Positions 45,355-64,000 of a DNA stretch of 64,000 nucleotides are shown here, one piece after another. Origin of the DNA: Poronia punctata (taxonomy: Eukaryota; Ascomycota; Sordariomycetes; Xylariales; Xylariaceae). Location of the stretch: positions 1 through 64,000 of the forward strand of contig MU401456.1 of assembly GCA_022579005.1 (NCBI GenBank), written 5' to 3'. Position 1 is the stretch's first letter; every line of letters begins with the position of its first letter. Under the pieces are notes generated by a model that saw only the letters and a program-made list of their open reading frames with translations, searched no databases and was not told the DNA's origin. The position numbers and the translations under genes were made by a program.

Positions 45355-46393
45355 GGTCATACATAATGAGCTTGTACATTTAAAAATTCAATATGTAGCT
45401 TTATAAAGATACATGTCTGCCTCTTATCTCATGTAAAATGTCGTGTCTTCCGGACCTCATAACCATCAGACTTTGTGCCTTGAAGAAATGTTTACATCAG
45501 ATTTGGGCTGGTCCCTGGCCGCCCCCGGATATTACACGTGTATGCAGCATTCCATTTCTAATCTAGGTACATATTATCCCGCTCTTGTTCCTTTGTCCCT
45601 CCAAAGGTTTCGGTTTCGGTTTTGAGCATTGATCCGGTGGCTTTTATCGAAGACCTGCATGCCTAGACCCCGGACATTGGTCGCAAGTTAGAATTCAAGA
45701 ATTGCACGGATGATCTTGAGCGAAGAGAGTCTGGTGCAGGGGGGCGAAAAGGGGCAAGTGTTTACCTAATGCTTCTGGTGCTCCTATTCGGATCTCTTAT
45801 TCGTATTACTCGACGTTTGATTGGCTACCAAGCCAGACGTTGTGGCTTGGCACCAACTAGACCCACCACCTACTGCACGCGCTAAGGATTGAACAATTGA
45901 AGTGATGATGGGAATTTTTTTGTTGGTCTTGGTGAGATTCCCGAAGGGGGCCTACGGACAGCCGATTCAGGGACCATTCCGCAGTGGCCCATATCGAAAG
46001 TTTAGTGTTGGCGCTTGAAAGCTTCGCTGACCGTGCGGCTTGTGGTTCGACAGATCATCCTATCATGACCTGACGAGTCACGACTGGTCTGGAGTAAATT
46101 AGTTACTTGTCCTTGCTTGTTCGTTTACCGCCATCCTTGCTACCGTACTAAGTTTCCGTCTATCTACAACGTAATAACCTAATAATTTACATGTACTGTC
46201 GGGACATTCCGCTTCCCTTTTAACAAAGACTTTGAGAAGCGCCAAGTTGAAGACTTACGAGTATAACCCTACAAAGTGGCCTCTACCGACACCAACGCTT
46301 CGAATTTGCCAGAAATCGCAACAGTGTACCAGCCGCCCACTTCGTAACAACGACATCTCGACGATTCCTCCAACCCCCAAAAGATAAATTCCT
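45355..46393. other. intergenic region with the squalene epoxidase promoter
   Basis: One kilobase with no supportable gene. I looked for a clear sterol-regulatory motif and did not find one I would assert. Confidence 0.6.
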
Positions 46394-47959
46394 ATGAGTC
46401 AAATAACGACCTCGACCCTTCAAGAGGACCTCTTGGTCCGGAGGACAAAATACCATGAGGCGGACGTGGTTGTAGTGGGCGCGGGCGTCTTTGGATGCGC
46501 CGTAGCCAATACACTAGCAAACCAGGGGCGGAGCGTCATTCTGCTGGAGAGATGGATGAAGGAGCCGAATCGCATCGTAGGCGAACTATTACAACCGGGA
46601 GGCTATGAATCGCTGCAAAAGCTAGGCCTGGGCCATTGCGTCGAGGATATCGATTCGATAGTAAACAGCGGGATGGATGTGGTATGGTTCGGCCAGGATA
46701 TGTGCATGAAGTATCCCTATCCTAAAGAAGGCAGACGTCCGGCAGTTCGAACATTAAGACAGGGCCTCATGAACGGGTCAGCGAACGGCAAGACGAACGG
46801 CAAGGCGAATGGCGCAGCGAACGGCCACTCGACGCACGAAGACGAGCCCAAGAGACCACAGGGGCGGAGCTTTCATCACGGCCGCTTCATCATGCAATTG
46901 CGGAGGACGTGTATGAAGAACCCCAACATTAGCATCTTCGAGACCGAAGCCGTCTCTACCATCAAGGGCGAGACTTCAGCCGAAATTCTAGGCGTGGAGA
47001 CCCGTACCGTGAATCCTGCCACCGGGAAAAAGGAACCCGACTGTTTTTTCGGCCAGTTGACTATTATCGCGGACGGCTACGCCTCCAAATTCCGCAAAGA
47101 GTACATCGCTCGCGCCCCCATAGTTCGCAGCAAATTCTACGCGCTAGAGTTGATCGACTGCGTCCTACCACATGCGGGTTACGGTCACGTCGTAATCGGC
47201 AGTAAGACTCTATGTCTTCTTTACCAGATCGGCACGCACGAGACACGCGCCCTCGTCAACGTCCCCGAAAAACTACCCGAGGCAGCCCCAGCAGCAGGCG
47301 GTGTCCGCGGCTATCTGACTAACATCGTACTGCCGCAACTGCCCCCTTCTATCCAGCCGTCGTTCCGCGCGGCGTTGGAGAAAGACGACCGGATCCCACC
47401 CAGCATGCCAAACAGCTGGCTTCCACCTACAAAACAGGGATCGCACCCCGGCTTAGTCATTCTGGGCGATGCCATGAATATGAGACACCCGCTAACCGGG
47501 GGCGGCATGACGGTCGCCCTGAACGACGCCATCATATTATCAGAGGAACTCTCGCCTGAGAAGGTGCCGGACCTAGGCGATCACGCGGCCGTGAGACGAG
47601 CCATGTCCACGCTCCACTCGCGGCGGAAGCACCTCACCTCCATCATCAACGTCCTGGCCCAGGCCCTATACAGTCTGTTCTCGGCCGAGAGCACCAACCT
47701 CGCCAAACTGCAGCGCGGCTGCTTCGCGTATTTCGAGATGGGCTGGTCCGCCGATCCCATGGGTTTCCTCGGCGGCGTCATCCAACGGCCCTTGCTCCTC
47801 GCCTACCACTTTTTTACTGTGGCCTTTGTCGCCATTTGGCTCGACTGGAAAGATACCGGGCTCTGGAAGGTGCCCTTACTGCTCTGGCACGCCTTCAGTA
47901 TCCTGTGGACTGCTACGGTCGTCTTCTTGCCCGTCCTACTTAGAGAGCTTGTGTTTTAG
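46394..47959 (+). CDS. ERG1: squalene epoxidase (squalene monooxygenase)
   Basis: An intronless frame of 521 residues. It epoxidises squalene in ergosterol synthesis and is the allylamine antifungal target. The N-terminal FAD-binding fold reads VVVGAGVFGCAVAN with GxGxxG, ending in LLER. The second FAD signature is LGDAMNMRHPLTGGGM. Two hydrophobic segments near the C-terminus anchor it to ER or lipid-droplet membranes. Unusual here is an insertion of about 25 residues near 130-155, made of repeating Asn-Gly-Ala/Lys units, just before the conserved PQGRSFHHGRF segment. The housekeeping context and full catalytic motifs suggest a functional enzyme. Confidence 0.96.
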   Translation: MSQITTSTLQEDLLVRRTKYHEADVVVVGAGVFGCAVANTLANQGRSVILLERWMKEPNRIVGELLQPGGYESLQKLGLGHCVEDIDSIVNSGMDVVWFGQDMCMKYPYPKEGRRPAVRTLRQGLMNGSANGKTNGKANGAANGHSTHEDEPKRPQGRSFHHGRFIMQLRRTCMKNPNISIFETEAVSTIKGETSAEILGVETRTVNPATGKKEPDCFFGQLTIIADGYASKFRKEYIARAPIVRSKFYALELIDCVLPHAGYGHVVIGSKTLCLLYQIGTHETRALVNVPEKLPEAAPAAGGVRGYLTNIVLPQLPPSIQPSFRAALEKDDRIPPSMPNSWLPPTKQGSHPGLVILGDAMNMRHPLTGGGMTVALNDAIILSEELSPEKVPDLGDHAAVRRAMSTLHSRRKHLTSIINVLAQALYSLFSAESTNLAKLQRGCFAYFEMGWSADPMGFLGGVIQRPLLLAYHFFTVAFVAIWLDWKDTGLWKVPLLLWHAFSILWTATVVFLPVLLRELVF

Positions 47960-48323
47960 TTACTTAGTTTAGTAACGGGTGTGATAATCATCGGGTGGAA
48001 AAAAAAAAAATCCGGCGTAATGGAAACAAGCAAGCACGTTGATTAATGTAGTATATAGTATATATGAAAAAGTAATCTAGAATACCGACAAAATTAATGC
48101 GAGCCCATGTCGTCGTTCACCACCCATGTTAGGTAAATAGTATCGTCACGCTGCATACTTACTTACGTTCCATTCGAAGTCCACGACATTGTCCCTGCAT
48201 CTAGATCTAGATGCAACTGTTCCTTTGTACATGTTGCATGAAGAAAGGTGTAGTACCTAGCACAGGGGGTACTCGACTAAGTTTGTACGTGCGTCACTTG
48301 CTCTTATTTCATCATGTCTGTAC

Positions 48324-48359
<36 letters not shown>

Positions 48360-48911
48360 AGCGCGTGAGATATTCTCGTCTCTATTTTGTCTTTGTTCAT
48401 AGCTTTGAGGTGTTTTTCTTTTGTCTCGACTTGTGTAAAATCGGGATGAAATACCTACCACATGTCTCTCTAATCGTAAACTTGGCAAAGCGGTAATCTG
48501 ATCTGATCTAGGTATTTGACATAGTTAGAATATAGTAAATGGCCATGACATTGAGGGTCTTCAACTGTCATGGTCGGTTTGCGGAGTAGGTTGGTTGAGG
48601 ATTCGACCTTGACAAGGTATTACTAGGTTAATAATGCCATGTAGTCATATGGCCTTGATCGAAAAGTAAAACCAATAATCCAGATCAAAAACTTGGCAGA
48701 TGGAATACACGCCACCTTGGTATCTCAAGACAACGCGTTTTATTGAGGGGGTATATACATAACGCAACACAACTCGACAGCTGCTTGCTCCACCCTTTTA
48801 CCAGGAACAAGCCTAAACCCGTGAAACAACAAATACCATGAGAGTAACAAAGAACTCCTCTAATCCCGGCCATTCTAAACCATACGCCTACGCCGTGGTT
48901 GAAATCGCGCT
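47960..48911. other. convergent intergenic region with a T31 tract
   Basis: This is the gap between the squalene epoxidase and ALG5 3' ends. Thirty-one consecutive T lie at 48328-48358. No gene is supported; plus-strand frames near 48838-49632 are shadows of ALG5. Confidence 0.7.
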
Positions 48912-50213
48912 CTATGTCAGGCGTCTCCTATACACACCCATCATCCAACTAGCGCGAAGCACGGCGAGACCCACGGCCATCTTGACACTGTCTTGTATGA
49001 CGTTGAGCTTACTACCGCCCACCTCGTGCCAGTCAATGGGGACCTCTGCGACCTTGATGCCGGGGGAGCTGCCAATAACAGCACCGTCAAACCCGAGCAC
49101 GGGAACAGCTGGCGCGGACTCGGCCAACATGAGCATTTCAATGTCAAAGATCCAGCCCTCCGCATGCATGTATGGGATGATATGGGGGAGGGCGGCACGG
49201 GAGAATAGCTTGAAACCGCACTGCGTATCCCGGATGCGGCTTGTCGCTGGCGGAGTTAAGATGGTGAGAATAAGGTGGAATGATCTCATGAGAAAGTTAC
49301 GCAGTGCTGATCGCTTCACTACGGCCTCGCTGCCGACAAGGTGGCCACGGCTACCGATGGCGACACCTCGGTACGCGCCGTCTACAACTTCTTCGCAGCC
49401 CTCAATGAGCTTGGCTAGGTCGCTGAACCTCGAGGCCCCGTCAGCATCGGCGAAAAGCGCGTATGCGCCACGCACGTGTCGCAGTCCATGTGTCACACTG
49501 CCACCCTTTCCACGGTTCTTCTCCAGCGTCACGACACGTAGTATATCATGCAACCCTTGCTCTCTCGCAAACTGTAGGGCCACATCCACAGTCCGATCGC
49601 TACTCCCATCATTGACAATGATGATCTCGTAGCCAGAAAGATCCTCGCGCGGGGCATTCTCTGGCTGGACATGACGACGTGGGGTAGGTGGACGAGACCT
49701 GGGTCTCTTGGCACTGTTGTCTGGTTTCAAATATGTGTTTCGGCCATACGTCTCGTCTAGGTACTCAACTGCCTCTTTGAGTGTAGGCAAGATGCGGTCT
49801 TCTTCGTTATAGGCAGGGAATACCACGCTCACCAATACCTCAGCTGGCTCAATGGAACCGGTGTCGGGTATAAAGGTCGCAAGGTCGCGATTCAGCTCTC
49901 GATGTTCGCTCTGGCGGCGCTCGGCCAGCCAGCGATCATGCCAGCATGGTAGTTGCCGACGCACATATTCTTTACTGTTGGGCTGCGTAGTAATGTAGGT
50001 TCGTTCGGAAGGTAGTACGGCGCGGGGTTTGGGTGCGACGAGGTGCAGGAGAACGAAAAGCTAAGTAGAGAGTTAGCAAGCCCGGCTCATGCCTTCCTGG
50101 TCATTGAATCAAGATTTCCATACACTGTAGAATGCTAATGCTAGCAGTAAGACCATTCCCAGGAATAGATGGTGAGGCGGACTCTCCGCAACAAGCGCAA
50201 GGATGGCGTTCAT
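48912..50213 (-). CDS. ALG5: dolichyl-phosphate beta-glucosyltransferase
   Basis: Exons on the minus strand are 50213-50124 and 50060-48912, giving 412 residues. The 63-bp intron has a TTGCTAAC branch point, and both junctions are in phase. The first exon supplies the N-terminal membrane anchor (FLGMVLLLALAFYS). The GT2 glycosyltransferase domain begins at SVVFPAYNEEDRI and contains IIIVNDGSSDRT, the GKGGSV loop and the FADADG metal-binding motif. The enzyme transfers glucose from UDP-glucose to dolichyl phosphate at the ER, making the glucose donor for N-glycan precursor assembly. An Arg/Pro-rich insertion lies between the first and second motifs near residue 115. Confidence 0.95.
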
Positions 50214-51660
50214 GGTCCGCGCTTTCAGATGATAGACGGATTCACCATGGGATTAAGAATATTGCACCAGGTACAATATTAAGGAGGAAAGAAATTGCCC
50301 CCAGCGATATCCTCGCTGAGAGCGACAGGGAATAAATAGTACCGCAATGTAGGATTGCTGTTCATGAATTTTGAAGAAAGTCGCTTAAAGGTTAATGCAA
50401 TGTGTTAAAGAGTGAGCGCGGCTTCCTTGGTTACAGCCTACAGAGCTCTGGAAAAGCCACGTTTAAGGCTGACGAATTGTTCAGCTCCAACAGGACTCCT
50501 GCAGGGCATGCTTTAGCTTGTCATTAGTGCCCTGCCAATCCCCTGCCCGCCAGCTAGCCGAAAACTAGCCCTACTTTTAGTGCGGGGTTGGCCTGAGATC
50601 CTTGACAATATCAGAGATTCACTGTCTTTTTGCCCCACAGTATCTTGAGGCTGAAGTTTGCAACCCAAATTGTCCGACTTCAAAATGTACGTCTATGTCC
50701 GATGTGGTCAACCAAAGCTGATTGACCTATGGTTTATGGATCTTCGTTCCACGGTCCACCAGCTTAACATTTTGTCACTCTGTCTTAAACCAATATTTTC
50801 TTACATACCAGCTTGTAAAAGCATACCATAATGAGATGTCCTGCTTAATACCAAACCTAGGATGTTGTTCATCATCTTCATCACCATCACAAGACGATAG
50901 TCACCAATTTATAACAGGGCTAGAGCCTATAAACTTGAGTTATAGTCCTCTTCGAGTTCATTGATTCAAATCAAGCCGTTTAGACATGACTGCTATAGAT
51001 ACATCTGTTTGTGTTATCCTGAAATCATTGTTGCCACCAAAGCGTCTATAACCTGAATTTCTCACCACCTCATTCCCCATAGATAAGAAGCAATACAATG
51101 TTTGAGTACTGCCCTGAATCCACCAACCAGACACCAACCACCCTCGTATTCCAGGCCGGCAATCAAACCCAGGCGGTAGGATTAATCCACGCTGGCTCTT
51201 CATGAACACAGTTATCGCCGAGAACAATGTTTGGGTACCGTCCTACTCATTGGTCCAACACTGAGCCGATCCAGGTCCAGTTTTTGCCCGGCTACCCACG
51301 ACCTGGGACCTAAGCACGATAAAGCGTACTCGACTCCAGTGGTTTGTTAGGAGATACCTATTCCGCCGTCCAGGTAGGCTGCGAGAGCGTCGTATTTCGG
51401 TTAGAGGCGATCAAGTTGGATACGCGGTCGTAAATGATATTGAGGCATATCAGGAAAGGAATCGTTGTAAAACGAACAAAGTGCAGTCTAATCTTCTCTG
51501 AGATGCAGTCGTCTTGATAGAAGCGTTGTCGAAAGGCGAAAGGCTGTTCCTCGAGATATAACTCCCATGGTGTGTTTGTTGAGAGAGGTGTTTGCCATCA
51601 GAATAGGAAATGTCGCAGAGAAGATGCTAGTACCATGCCCTGGGTAAAAGTGATTTTGGG
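50214..51660. other. intergenic region, no gene seen
   Basis: One and a half kilobases of ordinary composition without a supportable coding region, tRNA or repeat. Short frames here lack any motif. Confidence 0.55.
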
Positions 51661-51674
51661 GTGCGCAGAAGCGA

Positions 51675-51811
51675 AAGCGGAAGCGGAAGCGGAAGCGGAA
51701 GCGGAAGCGGAAGCGGAAGCGGAAGCGGAAGCGGAAGCGGAAGCGGAAGCGGATGCGGATGCGGTTCACGATTTCCGGACTTCCATGGATTTTCAAAATC
51801 CGGCTCCGACG

Positions 51812-51853
<42 letters not shown>

Positions 51854-51867
51854 GGGGGGGGGGGGGG
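51675..51867. repeat. (GGAAGC)n tract, then C40 abutting G16
   Basis: About twelve GGAAGC units run from about 51675 to 51750 and decay into GGATGC units. A 45-base linker follows, then 40 consecutive C (51812-51851) directly joined to 16 consecutive G (51852-51867). Translated frames give Glu-Ala and Pro/Gly runs, not a credible protein. Long homopolymers next to the assembly gap may be partly artefactual. Confidence 0.85.
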
Positions 51868-51903
51868 CGGGGGAACAAACATACACAACCCGGCACACGA
51901 GGG

Positions 51904-51913
51904 NNNNNNNNNN
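51904..51913. other. assembly gap (10 N)
   Basis: Ten undetermined bases. The true distance between the two sides is therefore unknown, and the low-complexity sequence on both sides explains the break. Confidence 1.
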
Positions 51914-52034
51914 GGGGTCCGGGCCGGGGTTCCGGTCGGGGCTGCGGCCGGGGTTGGGGTTGGGGTTCCCCCTTTCCGGCGTCCCATGTTTTTTCAAAAA
52001 CCGGGCCCGCCCCCCCCCCCCCCCCCCCCCCCCC
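51914..52034. repeat. G-run tract, TTGGGG-like units, then C25
   Basis: Eight runs of at least three G occur in 51914-51966, ending with TTGGGGTTGGGGTT. This could fold as a G-quadruplex on the plus strand. A linker resembling the one at 51764-51811 and 25 consecutive C (52010-52034) follow. The order hexamer tract, linker, C tract is thus repeated on both sides of the gap. Confidence 0.75.
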
Positions 52035-52865
52035 AACAAGCGCAGCCAGTCTTGGGCTTTTTCTCTTCCAGGAACAACTGTCAACCAACGTGTCGCGCTG
52101 GTGCTGGTGGACGGGGGAGGGCGCAGGCCGTCGGCGCTCTGCTTCGTCTTGAAAGCACTTGGACATCCCGGCCGAGGACACAACCCGCCTTTGTGTCGGG
52201 GTGTTGTCTTGAAGTGGTCGCAGAATTCTTCATCAGAACCAGCATCACCGCAAGTTGGGCGCCCTTCTTTCCTCCGATGATCGATCCACGCTTCCGGCTA
52301 TTGGCGAGCGTGTCGTTCGGCGCTCTGCTTTCTTCTTGATAGAAAGCTTCATTGCACCTAGGCCAAGCCGCGATTGGCCGCAGTTCTTGCAGGTGTTTAA
52401 CACAAGTATTAAAGGTGGACAGATCTTCCGCAGTCCGGGCCTCAGTGCTGGACATGCGCGTGCCGAGGTGGGGGCAGGCGGCAAACATGTGCTGTTGCTG
52501 GAAACATGTTCGTGCCTGAGATCTTCAGATGTTGTGGTGAGGATCTGTGCGAATCTTATCGACTGTCATCGGTGTTGAGATGACATGTGCCCGTCACCCG
52601 TGCCTCGGAGCGCATCGGGTTTTCGTGTAGATCGCGTTTGTGCAGGACAACGGGCAGAGACCGACCCAGTCGTAGGACAGATGATGCCCGGTTAAACACC
52701 TGTGGTGTGTTGGTTACCCACAAGGTGACGTCCCAGAATTGGGTTGGATTCTGGAAGGCCACGCCAAAAAAGGCTGGCCACAACAAGACCTTCTTTCATG
52801 AGACCTGTCATGGAATCTCCAATGGTTCACCACTACAACACCCCCTTCGCCAGCCAGCCCAGCAA

Positions 52866-52913
52866 AACATAGCAGTGGTCTTCTCCAAGCAGGTCGAAGA
52901 CCACCGCTATGTT
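52866..52913. repeat. AAGCA-loop hairpin 1, 19 bp
   Basis: From the loop outward, CC pairs with GG, then after a small internal loop 9 bp (GTGGTCTTC with GAAGACCAC), an A-C mismatch, then 8 bp (AACATAGC with GCTATGTT). The loop AAGCA is at 52887-52891. Confidence 0.85.
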
Positions 52914-52931
52914 CTGATGGAATGATCCGTT

Positions 52932-52963
52932 GGGCAGAGTCCTCAAGCAGAGGACATCTGCCC
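52932..52963. repeat. AAGCA-loop hairpin 2, 13 bp
   Basis: GGGCAGA and GTCCTC pair with GAGGAC and TCTGCCC, with one bulged A (52956). The loop AAGCA is at 52945-52949. It lies 18 bases after hairpin 1 but has an unrelated stem sequence. It is the one member closed by TC/GA rather than CC/GG. Confidence 0.85.
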
Positions 52964-53514
52964 TTGACCATACTGATTGGCACCACGTTGCGACTGTGTT
53001 CTGCCCATGTCTGACGGTGTTGTTGCTCCCTCCCCAGGGTCATCAGAGACTCCGTTCCCCTTTCATCGATCCAGTCAAATAGAGGGTGTCTTCTTGTGGA
53101 CCACCCAGCACCTGCATTCATCTTGACTTGGGTCTCACCAAGAAGGATGAACTGGGAGGCGGAGGTAGCAGGATCTCTGTTGCCCTTTACCTTTATAGCC
53201 TGTCTCTGATAGACGATGGATACCTCGACCAATGGCGACCAGGGTAGCTTATTGAATTCCGGCCTGCTCCTCCATCACACTTGGATTGTGTGTTCTTGAT
53301 ATCAGCGGATCATGCAATCTATGCCGTTGGGGGTATAAACAATGGCGGTATCCAAGTCTCTCATGGACAATGACGGATTTGTCAAATGTCCGTTGGTAGA
53401 CATCCACGGTTACTGTGGATGTTTAGGTGCTCTCCTCCCAGACAACGACTCGAGTCTTCTTCTTCTTCAGCCAAGACGTCTTTCCACGGGGCCATCGCTG
53501 CATGGTATCGTGCT

Positions 53515-53573
53515 GAAGACGATTGCTGACACTGGAGCCCCCAAGCAGGAGGCCCCAGGCCAGCGATGTCTTC
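53515..53573. repeat. AAGCA-loop hairpin 3, about 22 bp
   Basis: This is the longest member. The outer arm GAAGAC pairs with GTCTTC. The middle arm ATTGCTG pairs with CAGCGAT including one G-T pair, and the inner CTGG and GCC segments pair with CCAG and GGC. The loop AAGCA is at 53543-53547. Several single mismatches interrupt the stem. Confidence 0.8.
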
Positions 53574-53640
53574 GTCGCATGGGTAATTGCCCCAGGGTAG
53601 CGTGCTGAAGACATTGCGAGGCCCTGTGGGATGGATTGAT

Positions 53641-53681
53641 CACCGACTTTGGAGTCCCAAGCAGGAGACACCAGGCCGGTG
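53641..53681. repeat. AAGCA-loop hairpin 4, about 14 bp
   Basis: CACCG pairs with CGGTG at the base, with TTGG, GTC and CC paired further in to CCAG, GAC and GG. Small mismatches separate the blocks. The loop AAGCA is at 53659-53663. Confidence 0.75.
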
Positions 53682-54260
53682 AAGTCGTCGAGTTGAGGGA
53701 TCCAGAAGGGGCGGGAAATGTACAAGAGCTGTTTTGACTCCTGGACGCCGAGTGTTTCCTCTGCTTTATCGAGGTCGAGACCTATCTTTGGAGAGTATGG
53801 TTGACACCCACACCAGGTTTTTTCTGATGTGATGGAAGGATGGGCCACAATCATGTGATAGTGGGAGGCGGCGGCTAAAGGGGACCATCGGTTTCACAGA
53901 TGAATCTCCAATTGACCTTTTGAAGTGCTCCTTTAATTCCCACGCGCTTGCGGAAGGTGGAGATACGCAAAGGAAAGAAGAAGGCCAAAATGCTCTATAT
54001 CGGGATGGAATCAGAGGTACGCCTTGCATTTGCTTGACAAGAGCTTGTGTCAAAGTTCTTGCCCTCGGGGACTACCTTGGCAGCTTTGAACTGGTCCAAC
54101 GACACAGACAAGTAATCCGATACCATGTGCTGATGGAGGGTGAAAATGACATCTGGAGTTAGTCTCCAACCCCCCACAGCCAGGTCAACTTCAGCCTTCT
54201 TGGCCGGCTTCCTTCTTCTGGAAGCCCCCAGCGAAAAGGACACGGATGAAGAGGTTGCTG

Positions 54261-54292
54261 CTGTGGGACTCCAAGCAGGAGTCTCCAAACAG
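54261..54292. repeat. AAGCA-loop hairpin 5, about 12 bp
   Basis: GACTCC pairs perfectly with GGAGTC around the AAGCA loop (54273-54277). Past a bulged T, GG pairs with CC and CTGT pairs with ACAG, with two bulged A. Confidence 0.8.
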
Positions 54293-54666
54293 ACAGTGAG
54301 CGGACCTGGAAATAAATACTTGTGGACTGACAAATATTTGCATTGTTGGACGAAGAGTCATTGACCGTTCTCTGTCGTCAAGATCCATCAAGGCCGGATC
54401 AATGAGATGATCCGGCGTGTCTTCGTAGCCCGCAATGGGTTATTGTTGCGCGCGCGGGGCATCGTCGTGGGCTTCTTCCTCTTCTTCATCGGGCACTTGG
54501 CCCCAACCGTACTCATCGCCCAGGAAAGGGGACTCTTGGAAGCTCTTCTTCGTATCCCTTATTCGTCTTGGTCTTCGTCTTCTGTGGTGTCATACAGAAG
54601 AAGTCACCGCCAAGCCAACCAACCCGAAGACGTATCTTTGAACAGTCTCCATTTCGGCCGAGACAT

Positions 54667-54701
54667 CAGCTCGTCGCGATCCAAGCAGGATGCGAAGGCT
54701 G
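54667..54701. repeat. AAGCA-loop hairpin 6, about 12 bp
   Basis: TCGC and ATCC (one bulged G) pair with GGAT and GCGA around the loop at 54683-54687. An outer CAGC pairs with GCTG. Confidence 0.8.
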
Positions 54702-54949
54702 TCTGTCTGTCTTCCAGTGGAAGTGAAGCACTCTCCCTTCAGCGGTTGTAGACTGAAAAAATTACTTGCGGCTGTTCTTGAGGTTGGTGATGGTCCCCCA
54801 ACGGTGGTGGGTATCCCGTTATCTCCCGGGTTTCCCCCTCATTGCTTCCTTGATATTTTCAACCAAGGGGCAAAGCCAAGACCAAAACATGTGTTGTGCT
54901 GGTATCTTCTTTGTGATATCGAAATACGCTCGGCGGGAGCCCCTATATT

Positions 54950-56650
54950 CTTGTGTAAGTGGCAGATTCATCAGACCAGAACAGAAGAATACAAAATGGG
55001 CAAACTTACATAACGAAGAAAGCTGAAGAGCCGAGAGACGAGGGTAATGGAAAGTGTTGTTGGGTGTATAGACAACACTTTAGAAACAAAGACAGTTGAG
55101 TTTGTTGCTCCTGTGAGTTAACACTTGTTAGTATAGGAACCGGTAGAAGTGAGGGAGAATTTTGTTCAATAACAGAGATGACTTACAATGTCGTACACAC
55201 GCACAAAGCAGTTCGTGATAGAACGACATTTTGGTTGCTTGTGTTCTATAACTTGTTAGTTTAGTTCCCGGTGTAAATGAAGCAAATGTATAAAGAGACG
55301 GATTTCATAAAGGAGATGACGATGACTTACTCTCGCAACCAACAGCGTTTGGCTGCAAGTGGCTTTGCTACAGTGTTGAGCCATAGACAAAAACCCCAAT
55401 CGCCGGACCAACAGTCTTGTTCTTGGTTCATCTTTCCCGAACACAACAAACCACACACGCATCTGGTAAACTGTTCCAGATGCGACACACCTTTTTTTCT
55501 GGCTCTTTCTGGCCAGACCACACACCCATCGGGCGCCTTTCGCTTACGCCCCACACGGTTTTTGTGAGAGGCGTAGATATGCGGACAAGACCTAGTAAAA
55601 AATCAGAATCAGCAGGGAGCAAAGAATAAATAAAAAGGTATTGCGCGGCGCCATGAGTGAAGAACTGGAAAACTAACTGGGATCATTTTGTCTCCTGGGA
55701 GCCAGCCAGCCCTGCATGACGAGCAGGTTTTCTGCAAGCCATCTCCCTGCCGATGATGTCGCGTCCTCGACAGTGTCAACTCACAAGGCAAGCCAAGCAG
55801 GCAGGCCGAGTGAATCAGACCGAGTAAACTGTGCACCCAGTCTATCCACACGAGGCGCTTTCTTCCGACATGCACACCGACAAAGGACGACAGTAAATTT
55901 GGCCTTGAGGCCAGGCGTGTCGGGCAGGGGAGAACCACCAGTTATCTGGGCATATGACCTCGGGTCTAACATATAGGGTTTGTTAGCAAGGGGGTGTGGT
56001 GGTGAAATGAAAGACGGGACGAAATTATCAAAGGACGTGTAGGCAAGACAGGATGGAATATACGAACCGACAACAGAAGCAGACCAGCGAGGGTATGTCA
56101 CTGGCCGCCTTTCTGGATTCTTTCCCATCCAGAATCTTTTCTTGCCAGAAAGCAGACAAAACGATGTTGGACGTTTTGTCGGCGATACCATTTGAGGTTT
56201 TTGCTCGAGGTGTTCTTGTGCACTTTGATTGTTAGGTTTGCCTTAGACGGAAGAGTTTCCAAAGTATTAAGAGAAAGGACGGGAGGATAGAGAGAGAAAA
56301 GAAAGTGTGGATACAGAGAAAGAGGAAAATAGGTACTAACCAACAGCAGACAACAACAACAGCAACAACAATCACGTTGTAGCTGGTCCTCTTCCCACCA
56401 GCCAGAGACTTTCTCACTCTTTGGCGTTTGGCCTTTGGGATATCAAGTCAGACTAGGGTTGTCGGCGAATGCATTGTCCAGACATGTTGCATCAGGTTTC
56501 ATAACAACAACAACAACAAAGGGAAGAAAGAAAAAAGAAAGAAAGAAAGAGAGACTTACATATATCGTTATGTATATGCCAACAAACCTGCACGCAGGCT
56601 TGGAGCTCCGTTAAAGCCCGACATGGTTGTGACTAAACACAACCAACAGT
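54950..56650 (-). ncRNA. possible spliced minus-strand transcription unit, coding status unknown
   Basis: A long CT-rich tract on the minus strand (about 56,880 to 56,650) resembles a fungal promoter. Downstream are plausible introns: 56063-55966 (GTATAT donor, GCTAAC branch), 55784-55592 (GTGAGT ... ACTAG), 55330-55238 (GTAAGT ... ACTAAC ... CAAG), 55186-55111 (GTAAGT, perfect TACTAAC, CACAG) and 55009-54950 (GTAAGT ... CAAG). The 55186-55111 intron is the most convincing. Joining exons keeps a frame open for a stretch with Cys-rich segments such as CRCACRKK and RCVCGLLC, but then meets a stop. I recognise no domain. It may be a structured long RNA or a degraded gene, and it could continue toward 52.1 kb. 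Confidence 0.35.
55781..55813. repeat. AAGCA-loop hairpin 7, about 10 bp
   Basis: GCC pairs with GGC at the loop (55795-55799), then GGC with GCC and TCAC with GTGA, separated by short purine internal loops. It is the weakest member. Confidence 0.6.
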
Positions 56651-58229
56651 GCTCCATGGGAATACCTGGAGAGAAGGGCGGAGAGAGAGAGAAAGAAAGA
56701 TCAACTGCTATGATAGAAGCAGGCAAAGATGAAGGCGAAGGTGAAGGGAAAAGAGCAGAGGAAAGGGAGAAAGAGAGAAAGAAAGAGAGAGGTGTAGAAG
56801 GGATTAAGGGTTTGGAGAAAAGAAAAATATGTGTGAAGAAGAGAAAGAGAGAAGAGGGAGGAAGAGTTGCAAGAATAGTTACAGATATTTATAGACCATG
56901 TGTGTGTGGGAACAGGAATAGAAAATTTTCACTTGTCCCTTCTACAAGTAGGTAAACAAGCGAGAATGGCCTATTGTACCAGTCCCAGTCCCATTGACAT
57001 CGCTCTATTCAGAAAGCCTGAATGTTATGGTTCACGGCGACAATGTACCTACATCATCAAGCGGTTTACCTACTGTTTACAATGCGGATCAAACCACGCT
57101 AGCAGACATTCACAATGCAGGATAGCCACGCTAACGGGCATTGTCAATGGCGGGCGACAATAACACATACACGTACATACTGACCTGAAGTAAACACCGC
57201 CTTTTGTATTGTTTGTATTGTGATATGGAATACCGCCGGCAGAATGGTGGAAGTGCAGACACCGCCTTCAAGGCAAGGTACCTTACCTATGTTCACCAGT
57301 ATTTAGACCACAGCCCTCATGTGAGTCGAGTGTTTTTTCCTTCTTAAGAACACTTTGAAGAAAAGTAGATAAGTAGGGAGGGAGTGGCAGAATCATATCA
57401 CATCAAGTTCATCATCTTCAATTACCACTTGACCGACTGACTGACTAACTAACTGTAGAGTTACGATACAGACACAATAACCATCTAAGTATAAATATAA
57501 ATAATCACCTTTATTCCCGTAGAAACATCCTTTCCCCTTCCCTTTATTATCAGGTGTAGTCTGGCTTTGGTTAAAAAACATTGCCCGCTTTCCCTTTCCC
57601 TATTGTGCTATAAGCTAGGATCTGTCCTGGGATCACGCGTAATTTCTGATTTATAGCTGTAAAAATAGAAACCTTTGTTTCTTTGTAATCTCTTGCCTCG
57701 TGCTTAAGATCCAAGAAAGCTTTTCAAAATATTTTCAATATAAAACCCAGGGTTTGTCTCAATTAACCTAGGTGTTGCTGATATATAGCAGTTACTTCTC
57801 TTCAACTTCAAAAACACGTTTTTGGATTTGGCCATTTGCAGATTATCGAGATTGTAGTCTTTTTGGAAACAGTGGTATACACCGTAAGATAGAAATATGT
57901 GACATATGTTTCCAATTTCAGTTGATAGTCATAGTTGCCCATGGTTTCCGGGGTGCCAAGCATGTGTCAACTCTTGCTATACTTTCTTAAAAGTTCTCCA
58001 TCTTATAGCCGTTGATACAGCTCAGTGAACTTGAGATAGATACATCATGCGATAGCTTCCATTTGAGAACCCTGCAACACACCCCGAGGATTAAACTCAT
58101 GTTACTCACGCTTCTCCTCTCCATAGCTTCTCTCGGCTATCCCACTGATAATCTTTCTCGCCCAAAATCTTGTGCTGTAGGTGCTTCGTTTCCATAAGCT
58201 AACCGAAATCCATGTCAAACATAGCCCAA
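56651..58229. other. GA-rich tract and intergenic region
   Basis: 56660-56880 is purine-rich on the plus strand (GAAA, GAGA units), the complement of a pyrimidine-rich promoter. A 175-codon plus-strand frame across it is low-complexity and unlikely to be a gene. 57000-58229 has ordinary composition and no supportable gene. Confidence 0.5.
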
Positions 58230-60073
58230 CTAGTGCACACTGTTGCGAGCAGTTGCCCTGGTTTTCACAGGCTCAGTAGCTACCTGATCCCCAATATCAT
58301 GTATCTTCTCAACAAGCTGTCGGGTGGAAGGGGACAAATCCCTTCTTGCTGCTAGACTTGCAGCGCTTTCAAGAGTCTCAGATGACTGGCTGTTGAGGTT
58401 AAGCTGCCGCTTCTCGGGGACTACATCTCCTGCACTGACGCCCACATCGGTGGCATCGTGGCCGACAGACTGGCGGCTCCTCGCCGTACGTTGCTCAGCT
58501 CCTCCCAAACTTGTGCCGGCATCAGACCGAACAGGGGCCGGAACAGGGACCGAGGATCGACTGCTCCTAGCTGTGCGATTGTCGGATCCCGAACTTACGG
58601 CTACGCCAGCATAAGAAGGAACAGGGACATCAGACCCGCTACTCTTGGCGGTCCGAATGTTGGTTTCCGTATTTATGCCGGTATCAGAGGGAACACGGAA
58701 GACTGGCTCGCTGCTCTCCGCGGCCCAGTTGTTCGATTCCGCACTAATGTCAGCATTAGAGGGCGCATGGGCAAAAGTCTTATTCTTCAAGGCGGCCCAC
58801 TCTTCGCCCTTGGCGTTTACGTCAACGTCAGAAGACACGCCAACGTCGGAAGACCCCGACCCATGGACAGCAGAGCGGCGGCGGCTCTTTGATGACCAAT
58901 TGTCAGAGGCCTCATGCGCCTTGTGCGTGATATTGTCGGCAGTCGACTTGGTCTTGGCCGACACATTTCCTGGGATGTTTCCGACGCTGCGTGTTGCCCT
59001 GGACGACAGGTCGGCTGCCTTGGATTTGCTGTTGCTTGCCATTACTCTGGCATTGTCGGCCGTTGCCTGAGCAACACTCTCAGCCGTCTGGCGAGCATCC
59101 TGGGCGAGCTCACGTCCACGTGGGGTGATAGCGAGAGTCCCGAGATAGAGTGTGCTTAACGCCAGCAGAAGCAGGCTAAAAGGTGATACCACCTTGATCA
59201 GCCAGAAAAGGGCAGTAGCACTGAGGAATGCCTGTGTCATGGTGTCAGCAGCGCTCCAGAATGTTATGAAACTATTTCGCTGTTACGCACACCAAATGTA
59301 CTTCGCAGGTCCTCGCCATATACGACTTTCTGTAGCTTAAGGGCAAGAAATTGAATAAAGTCGTGGACATCGCGGAGCGTAGCGTTGAGCGTGTCCTCGG
59401 GTATCTTCCTATATCGGGGTCTAGAACGGGCGATAATGTCGTTCTTGCTGGAGCGGCTGACGAACGAGACGAGCGATACAGCTGGGGAAGTCGCGTATTA
59501 GTATTCAAGTGAGATCATTCGGATAAGGAGGGCCATATACCTCCCAGGCCGGTAGCACTGAGTTTTAAAAGTAGCTGCGTCCAGTGGAAATGATGGAATG
59601 CGAGCAGCAGACCCACTAGACCGACATATGATTTCACCGTACAGATCGGGTCGTCCCACTTGAAGAGGGAGGTCAGTACTTTTAATCTTCTAGACAGATG
59701 AGGTGGTAGACTTACAGAGATGTACTTGTAGAGGCTGTCCTGATTTCCTATAGCAAAGGGATTGGATCCATCAGTAACGTATTCCTATCATCATATCTGC
59801 TTTGGTATATATCGTACCAATGGCTTTTTTAAGGGGCCCTGGCTTCGACCCCAGTTCTGGCTCTGGTTCGGACACTCGGAGGATATACTCTCCTGGGCGT
59901 AGACCACTCGGAGCAGTGTCTTCATTGACAGCAAGGACTAGGGACACAAATATCAGAAACGAATAGCAGAGGGGTTTCAAGCGTTGGGTAACTTGCGTTC
60001 CTCATGCTCGGCCTCTAATGGAACTTCACCCGCTCCAGCAGATGGCATGGATACAAAAGGATTGTTGCTCATT
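58230..60073 (-). CDS. reticulon-like ER membrane-shaping protein
   Basis: Exons on the minus strand are 60073-59998, 59937-59818, 59747-59716, 59658-59541, 59481 to about 59294, and 59231-58230, giving about 511 residues. The reticulon homology domain starts at NQDSLYKYISWDDP and has two long hydrophobic hairpins: one around GLVGLLLAFHHFHW, the other around ALFWLIKVVSPFSLLLLAL. Between them is the conserved IPEDTLNATLRDVHDF stretch. Reticulons bend ER tubules. Intron 1 appears to use a GC-AG pair (donor GCAAGT), the only choice that keeps phase. At the last intron the canonical GT-AG choice leaves one base too many, so that junction is unresolved. The C-terminal third is Ser/Ala/Asp-rich with degenerate repeats of about 28 residues containing VPVPS-like cores. 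Confidence 0.85.
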
Positions 60074-61044
60074 GTGTTTCTCTTGTTGGAAAAGAAAAAG
60101 ATTCAAGGTTTTGGAAGAAGCTATCTTGAACCGGTGGTTTTTTCTCTCTCTCGAGATAATAGGACATCTAGTAGAAAGAAACTATTGAACTTTGACGTTA
60201 TTCATATGCTCTCTATATATGGGTGCACAAGCTCCATAAATTCGGTGCCGTCATCGATGGACGGATATTAACGTCATGACTGGAAACTTATGACATGAGA
60301 CGATAGGTACTTCCCAGCATCAAGCCTAACACAAGCTATCACGTAGTGCCGACTCCCGAGGCGGTAGTCGCAAGTCTGACCATTTTGTGCGCCTCCCAAG
60401 TTACTTTGGTTCACAGCATAGACGGAAGTTGGCAGGCAAAAGGATATTTGCTTGAAGATATAAATATGACTTTTACTGGCTGACTTCGCTTTTGGGCCTC
60501 AAACCTAAGGTTAGCTTTGTAGGACAAAGGTAGAGCTTGGAAGTGCTCGGTCAGCTGTAGGGTCCGTCTGTACTCAGGGGCAGCTTAAGTATAGATGTCA
60601 GCCAGGTGGTAGCAGCTGCGGTATAGTATTATTATGACCTGCCCCTCCTGCTTCCCCTCCAGCACTGCCAGTCCACCACAGCCCCCACCTTTACAAGCCG
60701 GCTCCATCTGGCCTAAACCTATCAAGCTCTATCAAAATTACCCGATGTGGCAATATGCACAGCTTCATTTTAGCCCAGTTTAGTCTTTCCACAATTAATA
60801 AATGCTCAAGCCACCTATATGATGCTTTCTCTATTAAAAATGATACACCTATAATAACAGTGTATTCTATTAATAGATTTACGCTCGAGGAACTACGTAG
60901 AATTTATAGTGCCTCAATTAGCCAAATCTCTGGGATGAGATCTATAGAGAGGTAGGTATTCCTTGTATACCTATATATTCTGGTGGGTGCCTTTATCTCT
61001 ATCACTTGGTCACACCTGCATAACTATGGACGCAGCAGATTAGG
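60074..61044. other. intergenic region, no gene seen
   Basis: Nearly 1 kb upstream of the reticulon gene with no supportable coding region. A 66-codon frame at 60755-60955 has no recognisable content. Confidence 0.55.
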
Positions 61045-62555
61045 TACCGTACCAAAACCAAGTGGATCCAATAAACTTTATACAAATAATTTAATTTTAT
61101 AAACAGTTTATTTTCTGTTAAATAATTTAAAATATTTAAAAATTAAAATATTAGGTTTTTTAAATATAAAAATAAAACTTAATTATATAAAAACTTAAAC
61201 ATTTAATAAAATTTAAATATTTAAAAAAGTAAAACACTTATATTTTATTTTTAATATTTTAAAAGCTTTAGTTACTTAATAAATAACTAAAATCTAGTTT
61301 AATATTTTTAATATATTATATTTATTATTTTATATAATTAAAATATATTTAAATACTTTAAAATAAAATAATTATTTTAAATGCGTTTTTTAAACGTTTA
61401 AAAGAGATAAACGTTGAAAATTGCATAATATTAAAATATTTAAACGTTTAATTTAGCTAAATATTAAAATTAAAAAATATAAAAAGTATTTAATATTTTA
61501 ATAGAAAAGAAAATATAAACAAGGTAAAAAAAGTAAAAATAAACGTAAATATAACTATAATTAATCATTTTTAAAATTAAAAAAAAAAGAAAAAAAAATA
61601 AAAAAATAAAAAAAATAAATAAAAAACTGCTAAAAACAATAAAAAAAGAAATAAAAAAAAGAAATAAAAAACTGCTAAAAACAATAAAAAGAATTAAAGA
61701 AAAAAGGGAAAAAATAAAAATAAAATAAAAAGAAAAGAAAAAAAAGAAAAGAAAAAAAAGAAAAGAAATAAAAAAAGAAAAAAAAAGAAAAAAAAGAAAA
61801 AAAAAGAAAAAAAAAGAAAAAAAGAATAAAAAAAATTATTGTTTTATTTTTAATTTACTTTATTATTTTTGTTTTTTTATTTTCTTTTATTATTATTTTT
61901 AGTTTTTTTAATATATTTTGCTTTGCATACTATATAGTTTAAAATAATTTCTAGGAATTTTATTCTTTATAGTTTAGTGTATTTAGAAAACGTTTAGCTT
62001 TTAATATATTAATTCCAGTTCGATTCCTATACTTGTTTATAAAAATAGTGATTTTTTAAAATAAAAAAAACCAGTAAAAAAATGTAAAAAATGTAAAGAT
62101 AAAAAAGAAAAGTAAAGAACAAAGTAAAAAAAAGAAAAAAAAAGAAAAAAGAATAAAAAGAGAGAAAAAAAAGAAAAAAGAAAAAAAAAATAAAAAAAAA
62201 CATTTTTTAAATTTCTTTTTTTTAAAAAACAAAATAATTTTTTTATATAATTTAAATATTAAATTACTATTTTTATTAAACTTATATTATTTAATAAATA
62301 TTTTATTTATATATAATTTTTTTAAATACTTTATAATTATATATTAAATTTAAATATTTAACTTTTATTTAAATAAAATTTTAATATTTTCTATTTTATA
62401 TATTGAATTAATTTTCAATATTTATTTTTACTTAAAATGTTTAAAATTTTCAACTTTCTTTTACGTCTTTATTTTTTCAAACGTTGAAAAGTGCATGAAC
62501 CGTTGAAAATCTATCAATTTACAGTTTATTGAACCTAGCAAGTCTTGGTACGGTA
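61045..62555. mobile_element. TIR element 1, AT-mutated, TA-flanked
   Basis: Inverted termini lie at 61047 (reading CCGTACCAA inward) and 62553 (reading CCGTACCAA on the minus strand). They match for 9 bases and again at CAATAAAC after a diverged stretch. Both ends are flanked by TA, which would fit a TA target-site duplication as in Tc1/mariner-type elements. The 1.5 kb interior is almost pure A and T with long A- or T-biased runs and no frame, as expected after RIP. The superfamily is inferred only from the TA flanks. Confidence 0.6.
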
Positions 62556-63004
62556 ACATCTCGAATGTTATCTATCCATATCCCTATTTGTGTCATGGTG
62601 TCGTGATTGAGGATCGCTCCCTGCCCCATACATTATTGTCGATCGAATATCGGCCCGTACCGAACTGCAACCATCTGTTCTGCCTTTGGCATACAGAGGT
62701 AGGTAGGTACCGTACCAGGACCTGCTAGATCTTTTAAACTGTAAATCTATTGTAAATGAATAGTTGAGAATTGAAAACGCTTTAGGCAAAGATAACCTTG
62801 GAACGACGGTTTGCTGCAAATAACGTTTAGGAGCAATTAAGCGCTTAAAAAAAAATTTACGCTTAATATTAAAAACGCTTAAGATTTGAAAACGTTTTTA
62901 AAGCTTGAAAACGCTTAACAAGTACTTTTGCATACTAAAAAGTAAGGCTAGGTACTTTAGGTACTTAAATACTTAAGTCTAAAGGTTAGGTGCTTTAATT
63001 GTTG

Positions 63005-63030
63005 TTTTTTTTTTTTTTTTTTTTTTTTTT
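63005..63030. repeat. T26 tract inside TIR element 2
   Basis: Twenty-six consecutive T. Read on the minus strand, this is an A tail immediately after a tRNA-like segment (63031-63105). Confidence 0.9.
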
Positions 63031-63206
63031 AGCACACATGAGAATTGAACTGCAATACTTTATTATAACTATATACATCTATCTAATTACACTATGTAGG
63101 AGGTATCCTTATTTGTAGCTTCTATTACAATTGATATGGTCATGTAAGGCCGTCGCAACTTCCGCTTGGTGTTTCTGGGGGGGGGGGGGGTGAAAAGGGG
63201 TCACGG

Positions 63207-63450
63207 ACCTTTGGAATGGGCTGCCTGCCATGGCCCATGGACCTTCAGAAATGACTGCTATGGTTCAAGGACCTTCAGAAATGACTGCTATGGCTCATGG
63301 ACCTTCGAAATTGACTGCCATGGCCCATGGACCTTCAGAAATGACTGCTATGGTTCAAGGACCTTCAGAAATGACTGCTATGGTTCAAGGACCTTCAGAA
63401 ATGACTGCTATGGCTCATAGACCTTCAGAAATGACTGCTATAGCTTATGG
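63207..63450 (+). repeat. 30-bp minisatellite, seven units plus a degenerate first unit
   Basis: Units start at 63241, 63271, 63301, 63331, 63361, 63391 and 63421, each of the form ACCTTCAGAAATGACT followed by GCTATGG and a variable end. A degenerate unit lies at 63207-63240. Because 30 is divisible by three, one frame encodes a repeated decapeptide GPSEMTAMVQ over 76 codons (63230-63460). There are no spacers between units. I read it as a minisatellite rather than a gene, since it lies inside a non-coding element and lacks any other coding feature. Confidence 0.9.
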
Positions 63451-63637
63451 CAAGCAATAAAGCGTTAAAAAAAAGTTAAGCGTTTTCGGCTGTTAAGCGT
63501 TTTAAAAAGTAAAAACGTTTTAACATGCAAACGCTCTTTCTATATAACGTTTACCACGTTTAAACTAATAATTTACAATTGACCTATACAAACTATTTTA
63601 TAACGGTTTAAAGAAATGGGCAGGTCCTGGTACGGTA

Positions 63638-64000
63638 GCTTTCTACCATGATGTGGGGAGTGTAACTGTCTCGTCACACATAGGGTTCTTCATCTGGTAC
63701 GTACGTACACATCTGGTACAAGTTCGCCGGGACTACATGTGCAACCCACGGATAACTTGTGTCCAAGGGCTTGGTCGTAGGCTCCCGACATGATGATTCA
63801 TTCTTATGACAATCCTAATGATTATTGTTCTCGTAAGACATGATGAAATGGGCTGTTCCTAGATACCAGAGAAATGCGGCATCCCAATAGTGTGACTATG
63901 TACGTCATGTCAGTGGGCGACATGTGTATAGCAGATAATGTAATGTATTACGACTTCGGGACATCTTGGACTCGTTTGGCCCAAATTACGATGTAAATAT
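63638..64000. other. window end, no gene seen
   Basis: The last 360 bases return to normal composition and contain no supportable feature. Confidence 0.5.

Follow-up and report, generated by a model that had tools for sequence, protein, structure and literature searches.

Constant-loop hairpins within chimeric, apparently spliced loci of the fungus Poronia punctata

Seven hairpins that carry the pentamer AAGCA at the apex lie close together in the window, the 64,000-nucleotide (nt) stretch of DNA analysed here, which is the first 64 kb of contig C3 (MU401456.1) in the 45-Mb genome of Poronia punctata; other contigs are likewise named C plus a number. The original prediction described these hairpins as a family with a constant loop and unrelated stems. 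We found that the family is real but that its setting is wider, as the hairpins lie within larger chimeric loci that are apparently spliced. They are not peculiar to the window, as the family spans at least five related loci (the window, C69, C41, C32 and C20). We propose that the strand with UGCUU in the loops would give rise, at each locus, to a long non-coding RNA that is spliced; that this RNA would be a patchwork with short sense pieces of other protein-coding genes; and that its non-intron stretches would form imperfect hairpins whose pairing is maintained and which are tagged by UGCUU, by an octaloop around CAACA or by AGUUC/AGGUC. We regard this descriptive part of the explanation as probable.

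Hairpins, loop classes and stem covariation

All seven hairpins were confirmed from the sequence and by RNAfold at the positions first given, each with AAGCA at its apex (Table 1). RNAfold left the five loop letters unpaired at the tip in all six window hairpins of the form CCAAGCAGG and also in the seventh. The closure by CC/GG claimed for six of the seven is present, hairpin 2 being the exception. The arms had been called unrelated, which does not hold for all of them; hairpins 3 and 4 are 83% alike over 35 nt and represent diverged copies (repeat family D8), so the independent stems number approximately six, and hairpin 5 has part of the arm of hairpins 3 and 4 (repeat family D4). Similarly, the arm length of 10 to 22 bp stands as a span but not as an unbroken helix, the stems having bulges and mismatches. 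In the region 52701-55900, seven AAGCA-loop hairpins were counted at score 12 and six at each of scores 14, 16 and 18. None of 200 dinucleotide shuffles reached the observed count at any of these four scores, as the original prediction had expected; AAGCA itself averaged 0.03 hairpins per shuffle at score 12 and none at the higher scores, and the highest count for any pentamer was 3, 2, 1 and 1, respectively.

A sequence search with the hairpin region returned matching pieces on other contigs. C69 contained seven further CCAAGCAGG hairpins on a single strand (86416 to 89318) and, among the places listed in the pattern searches, further same-strand clusters were found on C41, C32, C20 and C350. 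Under a common criterion (a closing pair and a stem score of at least 14), AAGCA-loop hairpins numbered 6 in the window, 7 in C69, 7 in C41, 2 in C32, 3 in C20 and 0 in C350, giving 25 on the AAGCA strand and 0 on the opposite strand of all six loci; the word AAGCA itself occurred 70 times on the hairpin strand and 18 times on the other. These loci were picked for holding the word or matching the window, and the counts thus describe the chosen loci and not a sample of the genome. C350 showed the word repeated on weak 4-bp stems and belongs to the family, if at all, through octaloops and gene pieces. C307 was a weak candidate, with the loop fold in one of two sites. Genome-wide, CCAAGCAGG occurred 381 times versus 248 for the same letters read backwards, and 122 versus 65 times when a complementary third pair was added; many of the excess sites were grouped in same-strand clusters. 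Dispersal of the hairpin across the whole genome found little support, as the AAGCA-tip fold was present in 2 of 10 CCAAGCAGG sites outside the clusters and in 5 of 19 sites of a second such sample, all with a complementary third pair.

AAGCA had been described as the constant loop; it is recurrent but is not the sole class, and at least three recurrent loop classes were found. Strict hairpins numbered 21, 13, 17, 15, 24 and 17 in the six loci (together 107), compared to 5.2 to 7.9 each in Markov controls. Among them, TGTTG formed 15 loops in five loci, GAACT 5 loops in three, AAGCA 4 loops in four and GACCT 3 loops in three, while the reverse complements of these four words were found in none of the strict hairpins of the six loci. 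Read on the minus strand, the classes are UGCUU, an octaloop around CAACA, and AGUUC/AGGUC. Isolated loop-class matches were also seen elsewhere in the window, as well as in control stretches. At C1:204877-207885 (L004), one hairpin of each of the three classes was found, all on the same strand.

The central claim that a constant loop goes with covarying stems was supported by pairing and covariation statistics both between and within loci. Between loci, the test set comprised 14 hairpins of the window and C69, 13 of them distinct. In these 13, 72.1% of cells were paired versus 53.2% in shuffles, and covariation was 0.404 versus 0.143, neither value being matched in 500 shuffles; the six pairs changed on both sides were equalled by 108 of 500. 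Within C69, seven tandem copies (six with AAGCA and one with AAACA) maintain an imperfect helix of 22 pairs, with 88.9% paired (0 of 500 shuffles as high) and a covariation of 0.182 (1 of 500). Six of these 22 pairs were changed on both sides, a number that 42 of 500 shuffles reach and slid partners, with at most 3, do not; read on the minus strand, both-side changes occurred in 5 of 20 predicted pairs. The C69 copies also have bulges in common, which argues against the mere perfection of quasi-palindromes. With a covariance model (R1), 38 matches at E up to 1 were obtained in 52 stretches. Twelve of the 14 training hairpins filled the first 12 places, and the other two ranked 17th and 28th; the best new match was the AAACA copy in C69 (22.0 bits), and below approximately 19 bits the model did not separate members from chance words.

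Two repeated arrangements were also observed in these loci. At C41:216800-217100 (L040, L041, L042), each of three tandem units combines an AAGCA hairpin with a small neighbouring one (arms TTGAC/GTCAA or AGGC/GCC) and an outer stem of GGAG..CTCC, in the manner of a three-way junction. In L064 (C20:68600-73400), at approximately 2590-3220, a unit CTCTGCC...GCGTCATTGAGGA that varies at its centre was present in at least five copies (by eye) and is possibly a further hairpin class.

Strand, predicted introns and pieces of other genes

The loop had been described chiefly as AAGCA; introns and folding indicate that the RNA is more likely the minus strand, on which the loop reads UGCUU, and this assignment is well supported. 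A strict intron signature (GTAAGT, GTATGT, GTGAGT or GTAAGA, a branch CTRAY, then YAG) was found 14 times on the minus strand and once on the plus strand of the six loci, with two or three on the minus strand of every locus, while 100 shuffled minus strands averaged 2.2 and never exceeded 7. The window and the C49 gene have the same intron ends and start codon, and the window and C67 have the same exon plus intron. In the window, C69 and C20, no strict intron overlaps a listed AAGCA hairpin (by eye; little overlap is expected anyway). In 120-nt windows, the mean fold z was -0.98 on the minus strand versus -0.71 on the plus strand (paired difference 0.27, standard error (s.e.) 0.08, n = 281); in control stretches the difference was opposite in direction (-0.13, s.e. 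0.07, n = 287). When hairpins were pooled over both strands with G-U treated as neutral, 32 were read as UGCUU and 25 as AAGCA. Because the strict introns, the folding, and the splice sites and start codon common to C49 all favour the minus strand, we took it as the RNA. The loci are presumably transcribed from this strand, and splicing of the transcripts is well supported by the predicted introns.

The loci are patchworks of pieces that resemble other genes. In the window such pieces match ORFs of C62, C73, C49 and C61 as well as stretches of C67 and C350 (Table 1). C20 contains a piece of a C1 open reading frame (ORF) with a helix-loop-helix domain (PF00010; 91% over 174 nt), a C8 ORF in two collinear pieces, a C103 ORF in several pieces and a second C8 ORF (PF20150, 2EXR). 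In C41, we found pieces of a C39 ORF (zinc-finger-like by eye; Pfam matches below cut-off), of C369 and of C49, and C69 contains pieces from C49 and C67. All 18 alignments to 10 ORFs ran antisense to the AAGCA strand and hence in the sense direction of the putative minus-strand RNA. This set comprised alignments of at least 30 columns, with the longest ORF defining the gene strand; C350 and the 5′ part of C67, which have no clear ORF, were excluded. With C49 set aside, all nine remaining ORFs still agree. The window locus has its 5′ end in common with C49 and C67, which may therefore be true relatives of it.

Two of the matching genes were looked at individually. C61:16394-22609 (minus strand) is an open frame of 2072 amino acids (aa) with a C-5 DNA methylase domain (PF00145, 35 bits; 869 aa scanned). 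Judged by eye, the 393-aa open frame at C49:12266-13444 (minus strand) contains repeats and ends in a finger-like part; the window locus has the same 5′ intron and start codon, and C69, C41 and C350 have pieces in common with it.

Between the copies and the genes, 145 non-synonymous and 99 synonymous differences were counted (145 of 244), together with gaps, and the copies do not look coding. An intact protein gene on the minus strand was rejected, as the window copy of the C49 start (MSFYHE) soon meets a stop once the 55186-55111 intron is removed (by eye), and the gaps and non-synonymous differences in the pieces also speak against it. Decay of the repeat-induced point mutation (RIP) type was likewise rejected: with 134 transitions and 111 transversions, the differences are not RIP-like.

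The pieces are mostly not extra-folded, so most hairpins lie between pieces or at piece edges. Hairpin 6 lies inside the methylase piece, where the parent C61 sequence shows a weaker hairpin with another loop (by eye). In C20, a hairpin at approximately 288-330 stands on the helix-loop-helix piece; of its two arms, the one downstream of AAGCA preserves the gene sequence almost unaltered, and the opposite one is changed to pair with it.

Table 1. Hairpins, predicted introns and gene-like pieces of the window locus (plus-strand numbering; AAGCA loop positions given for each of hairpins 1 to 7).
Feature	Position	Strand	Remarks
Hairpin 1	52859-52920	-	loop UGCUU on minus (AAGCA 52887-52891 on plus); arms 25 nt, 88% complementary (inverted repeat I1)
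Hairpin 2	52932-52963	-	loop 52945-52949; TC/GA closure
Hairpin 3	53515-53573	-	loop 53543-53547; diverged copy of hairpin 4
Hairpin 4	53640-53682	-	loop 53659-53663
Hairpin 5	54261-54289	-	loop 54273-54277; 8 unbroken pairs
Hairpin 6	54667-54701	-	loop 54683-54687; within piece matching the C61 DNA-methylase ORF
Hairpin 7	55781-55813	-	loop 55795-55799; weakest of the seven; passes score 12, fails 14
Octaloop hairpin	52564-52585	-	GGTGTTGA on plus, UCAACACC on minus
Octaloop hairpin	52733-52754	-	TGGGTTGG on plus
Octaloop hairpin	56155-56180	-	ATGTTGGA on plus; 9 unbroken pairs
Predicted intron	55246-55330	-	GTAAGT, 85 nt; ends and downstream ATG common to the C49 gene
Predicted intron	55111-55186	-	GTAAGT, 76 nt
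Piece like start-codon region of C49 ORF (MSFYHE)	55212-55249	-	89%
Piece like C67:71490-71547	55003-55060	-	81%; similarity extends into shared intron
Sense piece like C61 2072-aa ORF (PF00145 DNA methylase)	54629-54703	-	79%
Sense piece like C49 ORF	54374-54500	-	74%; adjoining 54478-54531 matches C350 twice (88-90%)
Sense piece like C73 ORF (weak F-box-like, below Pfam cut-off)	53476-53520	-	89%; part again at 53597-53621
Sense piece like C62 ORF (PF12044 metallopeptidase)	52550-52648	-	78%

Elsewhere in the window, positions 51653-52034 contain tandem GGAAGC repeats and two long C/G runs that flank an unreadable stretch of approximately 12 bases, perhaps a gap in the assembly; on the minus strand this lies immediately downstream of the locus. 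Genes elsewhere in the window include condensation, AMP-binding and carrier domains of a peptide synthetase (6095-8632, minus strand), a cytochrome P450 (25467-26675, plus strand), a squalene epoxidase (46394-47956, plus strand) and a 975-aa protein (42427-45351) whose best named match, from Xylariaceae sp. AK1471, is 51% identical. Positions 61470-61835 look very AT-rich, as judged solely by a phenylalanine-rich translation.

Explanations of the tagged hairpins

Beyond this description, we propose that an RNase III-type enzyme, Rnt1-like or Dicer-like, would recognise the tag and act on double-stranded RNA in a loop-dependent way, and that the transcript would be cut into hairpins, which would then be degraded or loaded as small RNAs. 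UGCUU and AGNUC both have G at loop position 2, and three Piwi-domain places are present in the genome. Such RNAs could act on their parent genes, since a gene piece can supply a hairpin arm, as the helix-loop-helix piece does in C20. We put the probability of the whole explanation, with the RNase III step included, at roughly 0.4. A further generalization, namely a fungal class of RNA genes in which sense host-gene pieces, some of them turned into apically tagged hairpins, are addressed to an RNase III/Argonaute pathway, with one locus acting on many genes through a loop code that ignores stem sequence, is doubtful.

Several observations weigh against the RNase III explanation or the evidence behind it. 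The strict intron pattern was chosen after a looser version had given 23 matches on the minus strand and 8 on the plus strand. The minus-strand folding bias is uneven: only C41 shows a strong bias (0.77, s.e. 0.23), and C20 shows none (0.04, s.e. 0.20). The test of G-T against A-C mismatches was weak, though leaning to the minus strand (at score 16, 113 versus 146 in the loci and 287 versus 264 in the control). Copies of gene pieces were mostly no more folded than randomly mutated genes (14 pieces); on the minus strand, 2 of 14 fell below 5% of simulations and 5 of 14 below 10%, while on the plus strand 1 of 14 fell below 5%. A hairpin arm could be tied clearly to its parent gene in one case only, that of C20. 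Furthermore, the octaloop class lacks G at position 2, and, according to passages of one report, hexaloops are cleaved by yeast Rnt1p poorly or not at all (PMC4334505); one enzyme would therefore hardly read all three classes.

In the strongest rival, the same chimeric, spliced transcripts stay uncut and the tips are docking sites for a putative RNA-binding protein that acts in export, localisation, translation or as a decoy. A constant loop on unrelated stems is what loop binding alone would leave, three loop classes could reflect several proteins, and sense pieces are unable to pair with their parent mRNAs. Against this rival, the long imperfect stems, with 22 pairs in C69, exceed the needs of a docking hairpin. 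Docking is a serious if minority possibility, whose probability falls not far short of that of the RNase III reading.

Alternatively, the loci could be the remains of transposons that capture gene fragments (Helitron or Pack type), or of another patchwork duplication, with transcripts and hairpins that serve no function themselves. This explanation fits the single orientation of the pieces of ten ORFs and the non-coding appearance of the copies, and the introns common to the window, C49 and C67 indicate that at least part was copied as DNA. However, it leaves unexplained both the one-strand loop word over unrelated stems and the covariation among tandem copies, and, according to passages of a study of fungal Helitrons, fragments of host genes are captured little by these elements (PMC4289320). 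We consider it unlikely.

A pure DNA process, in which template switching at quasi-palindromes makes the hairpins and no RNA role exists, would account for the C20 helix-loop-helix hairpin, with one intact arm and another altered to match, and for mismatch types that are nearly symmetric. It gives no reason to favour AAGCA, TGTTG and GAACT over their reverse complements (0 cases), and the seven C69 copies retain the same bulges instead of being perfected, which makes this process quite improbable as the source of the family.

The idea that the plus strand is the RNA, antisense to many genes and acting on them in trans, was an earlier working idea of ours, and the antisense orientation of every alignable gene piece to the AAGCA strand agrees with it. 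It was set back by the strict introns (14 to 1 for the minus strand), by the folding and by the splice sites and start codon that the minus strand has in common with C49, and is now very improbable. Finally, chance hairpins in a region that is richer in hairpins of all kinds than its Markov controls (21 versus 5.2) are refuted by the shuffles, none of 200 of which matched the count for any pentaloop, and by the recurrence of AAGCA hairpins on one strand at other loci.

If the RNase III explanation is true, fungi have multi-hairpin RNA genes that are recognised by their loop letters and not by stem sequence, with host genes as raw material. Such loci would offer a direct test of the birth of hairpin RNAs from protein genes and natural ligands for finding the loop-reading protein. 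Even without a silencing role, the retention of a loop word on one strand of several loci, above stems that are unrelated, is a constraint that lacks an explanation.

Comparison with known systems

Rfam gave no match to the window at 44000-64000 (E up to 1), nor to nine stretches of the other loci, C350 not included (E up to 0.1). The titles and abstract openings of part of the matching papers contain no description of this form. No family whose defining features are chimeric, spliced loci and constant loops on unrelated stems is known to us, and we therefore consider the kind of element new. The enzyme behind the hairpins may nevertheless be familiar, which would make the system a variant of a known pathway.

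According to passages of PMC4334505, the substrates of yeast Rnt1p are short stems recognised through the terminal loop; the enzyme prefers NGNN-capped stems with G at position 2, and pentaloops are also cleaved, with both loop sequence and structure needed. UGCUU likewise has G at position 2. The loops found here are not the classical NGNN tetraloop caps: two classes are pentaloops with a fixed sequence (UGCUU and AGNUC), one is an octaloop, and each predicted transcript of these patchwork loci would carry many of them. Fungal microRNA-like RNA (milRNA) loci, as outlined in parts of PMC9757828, resemble the present ones in that imperfect hairpins occur in fungal transcripts, which fold prediction also gives here, and Piwi-domain genes are present in this genome. 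Membership in that group further calls for defined reads of 20-24 nt from one arm that depend on Dicer or a different RNase III. They differ in that no loop-sequence class across unrelated stems is described in those parts, whereas here there are several hairpins per locus. Helitrons and Pack-type elements, including plant and animal cases, also unite captured fragments of several host genes in one locus, as the excerpted accounts have it; a Helitron, however, has one subterminal hairpin, compared to the many constant-loop hairpins of the present loci. Such elements are also marked by their ends (terminal inverted repeats, or a hairpin plus CTRR) and by transposition proteins; neither ends nor a transposase were identified here, although no search was aimed at them.

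The Drosophila hairpin RNA (hpRNA) loci have long, near-perfect inverted repeats, in contrast to the many short, imperfect, constant-loop hairpins predicted in the fungal loci. Extensive complementarity of the arms to a target gene is clear here for one hairpin (C20), the other pieces lying mostly beside hairpins. From the excerpts of PMC10317233, hpRNA transcripts such as hp-ODox of D. simulans are chimeric and non-coding, combine fragments of protein genes with inverted repeats and have arms derivable from a gene. The predicted fungal transcripts are likewise chimeric, with protein-gene pieces in one sense orientation, and the hpRNA loci of D. simulans are the nearest precedent for their architecture.

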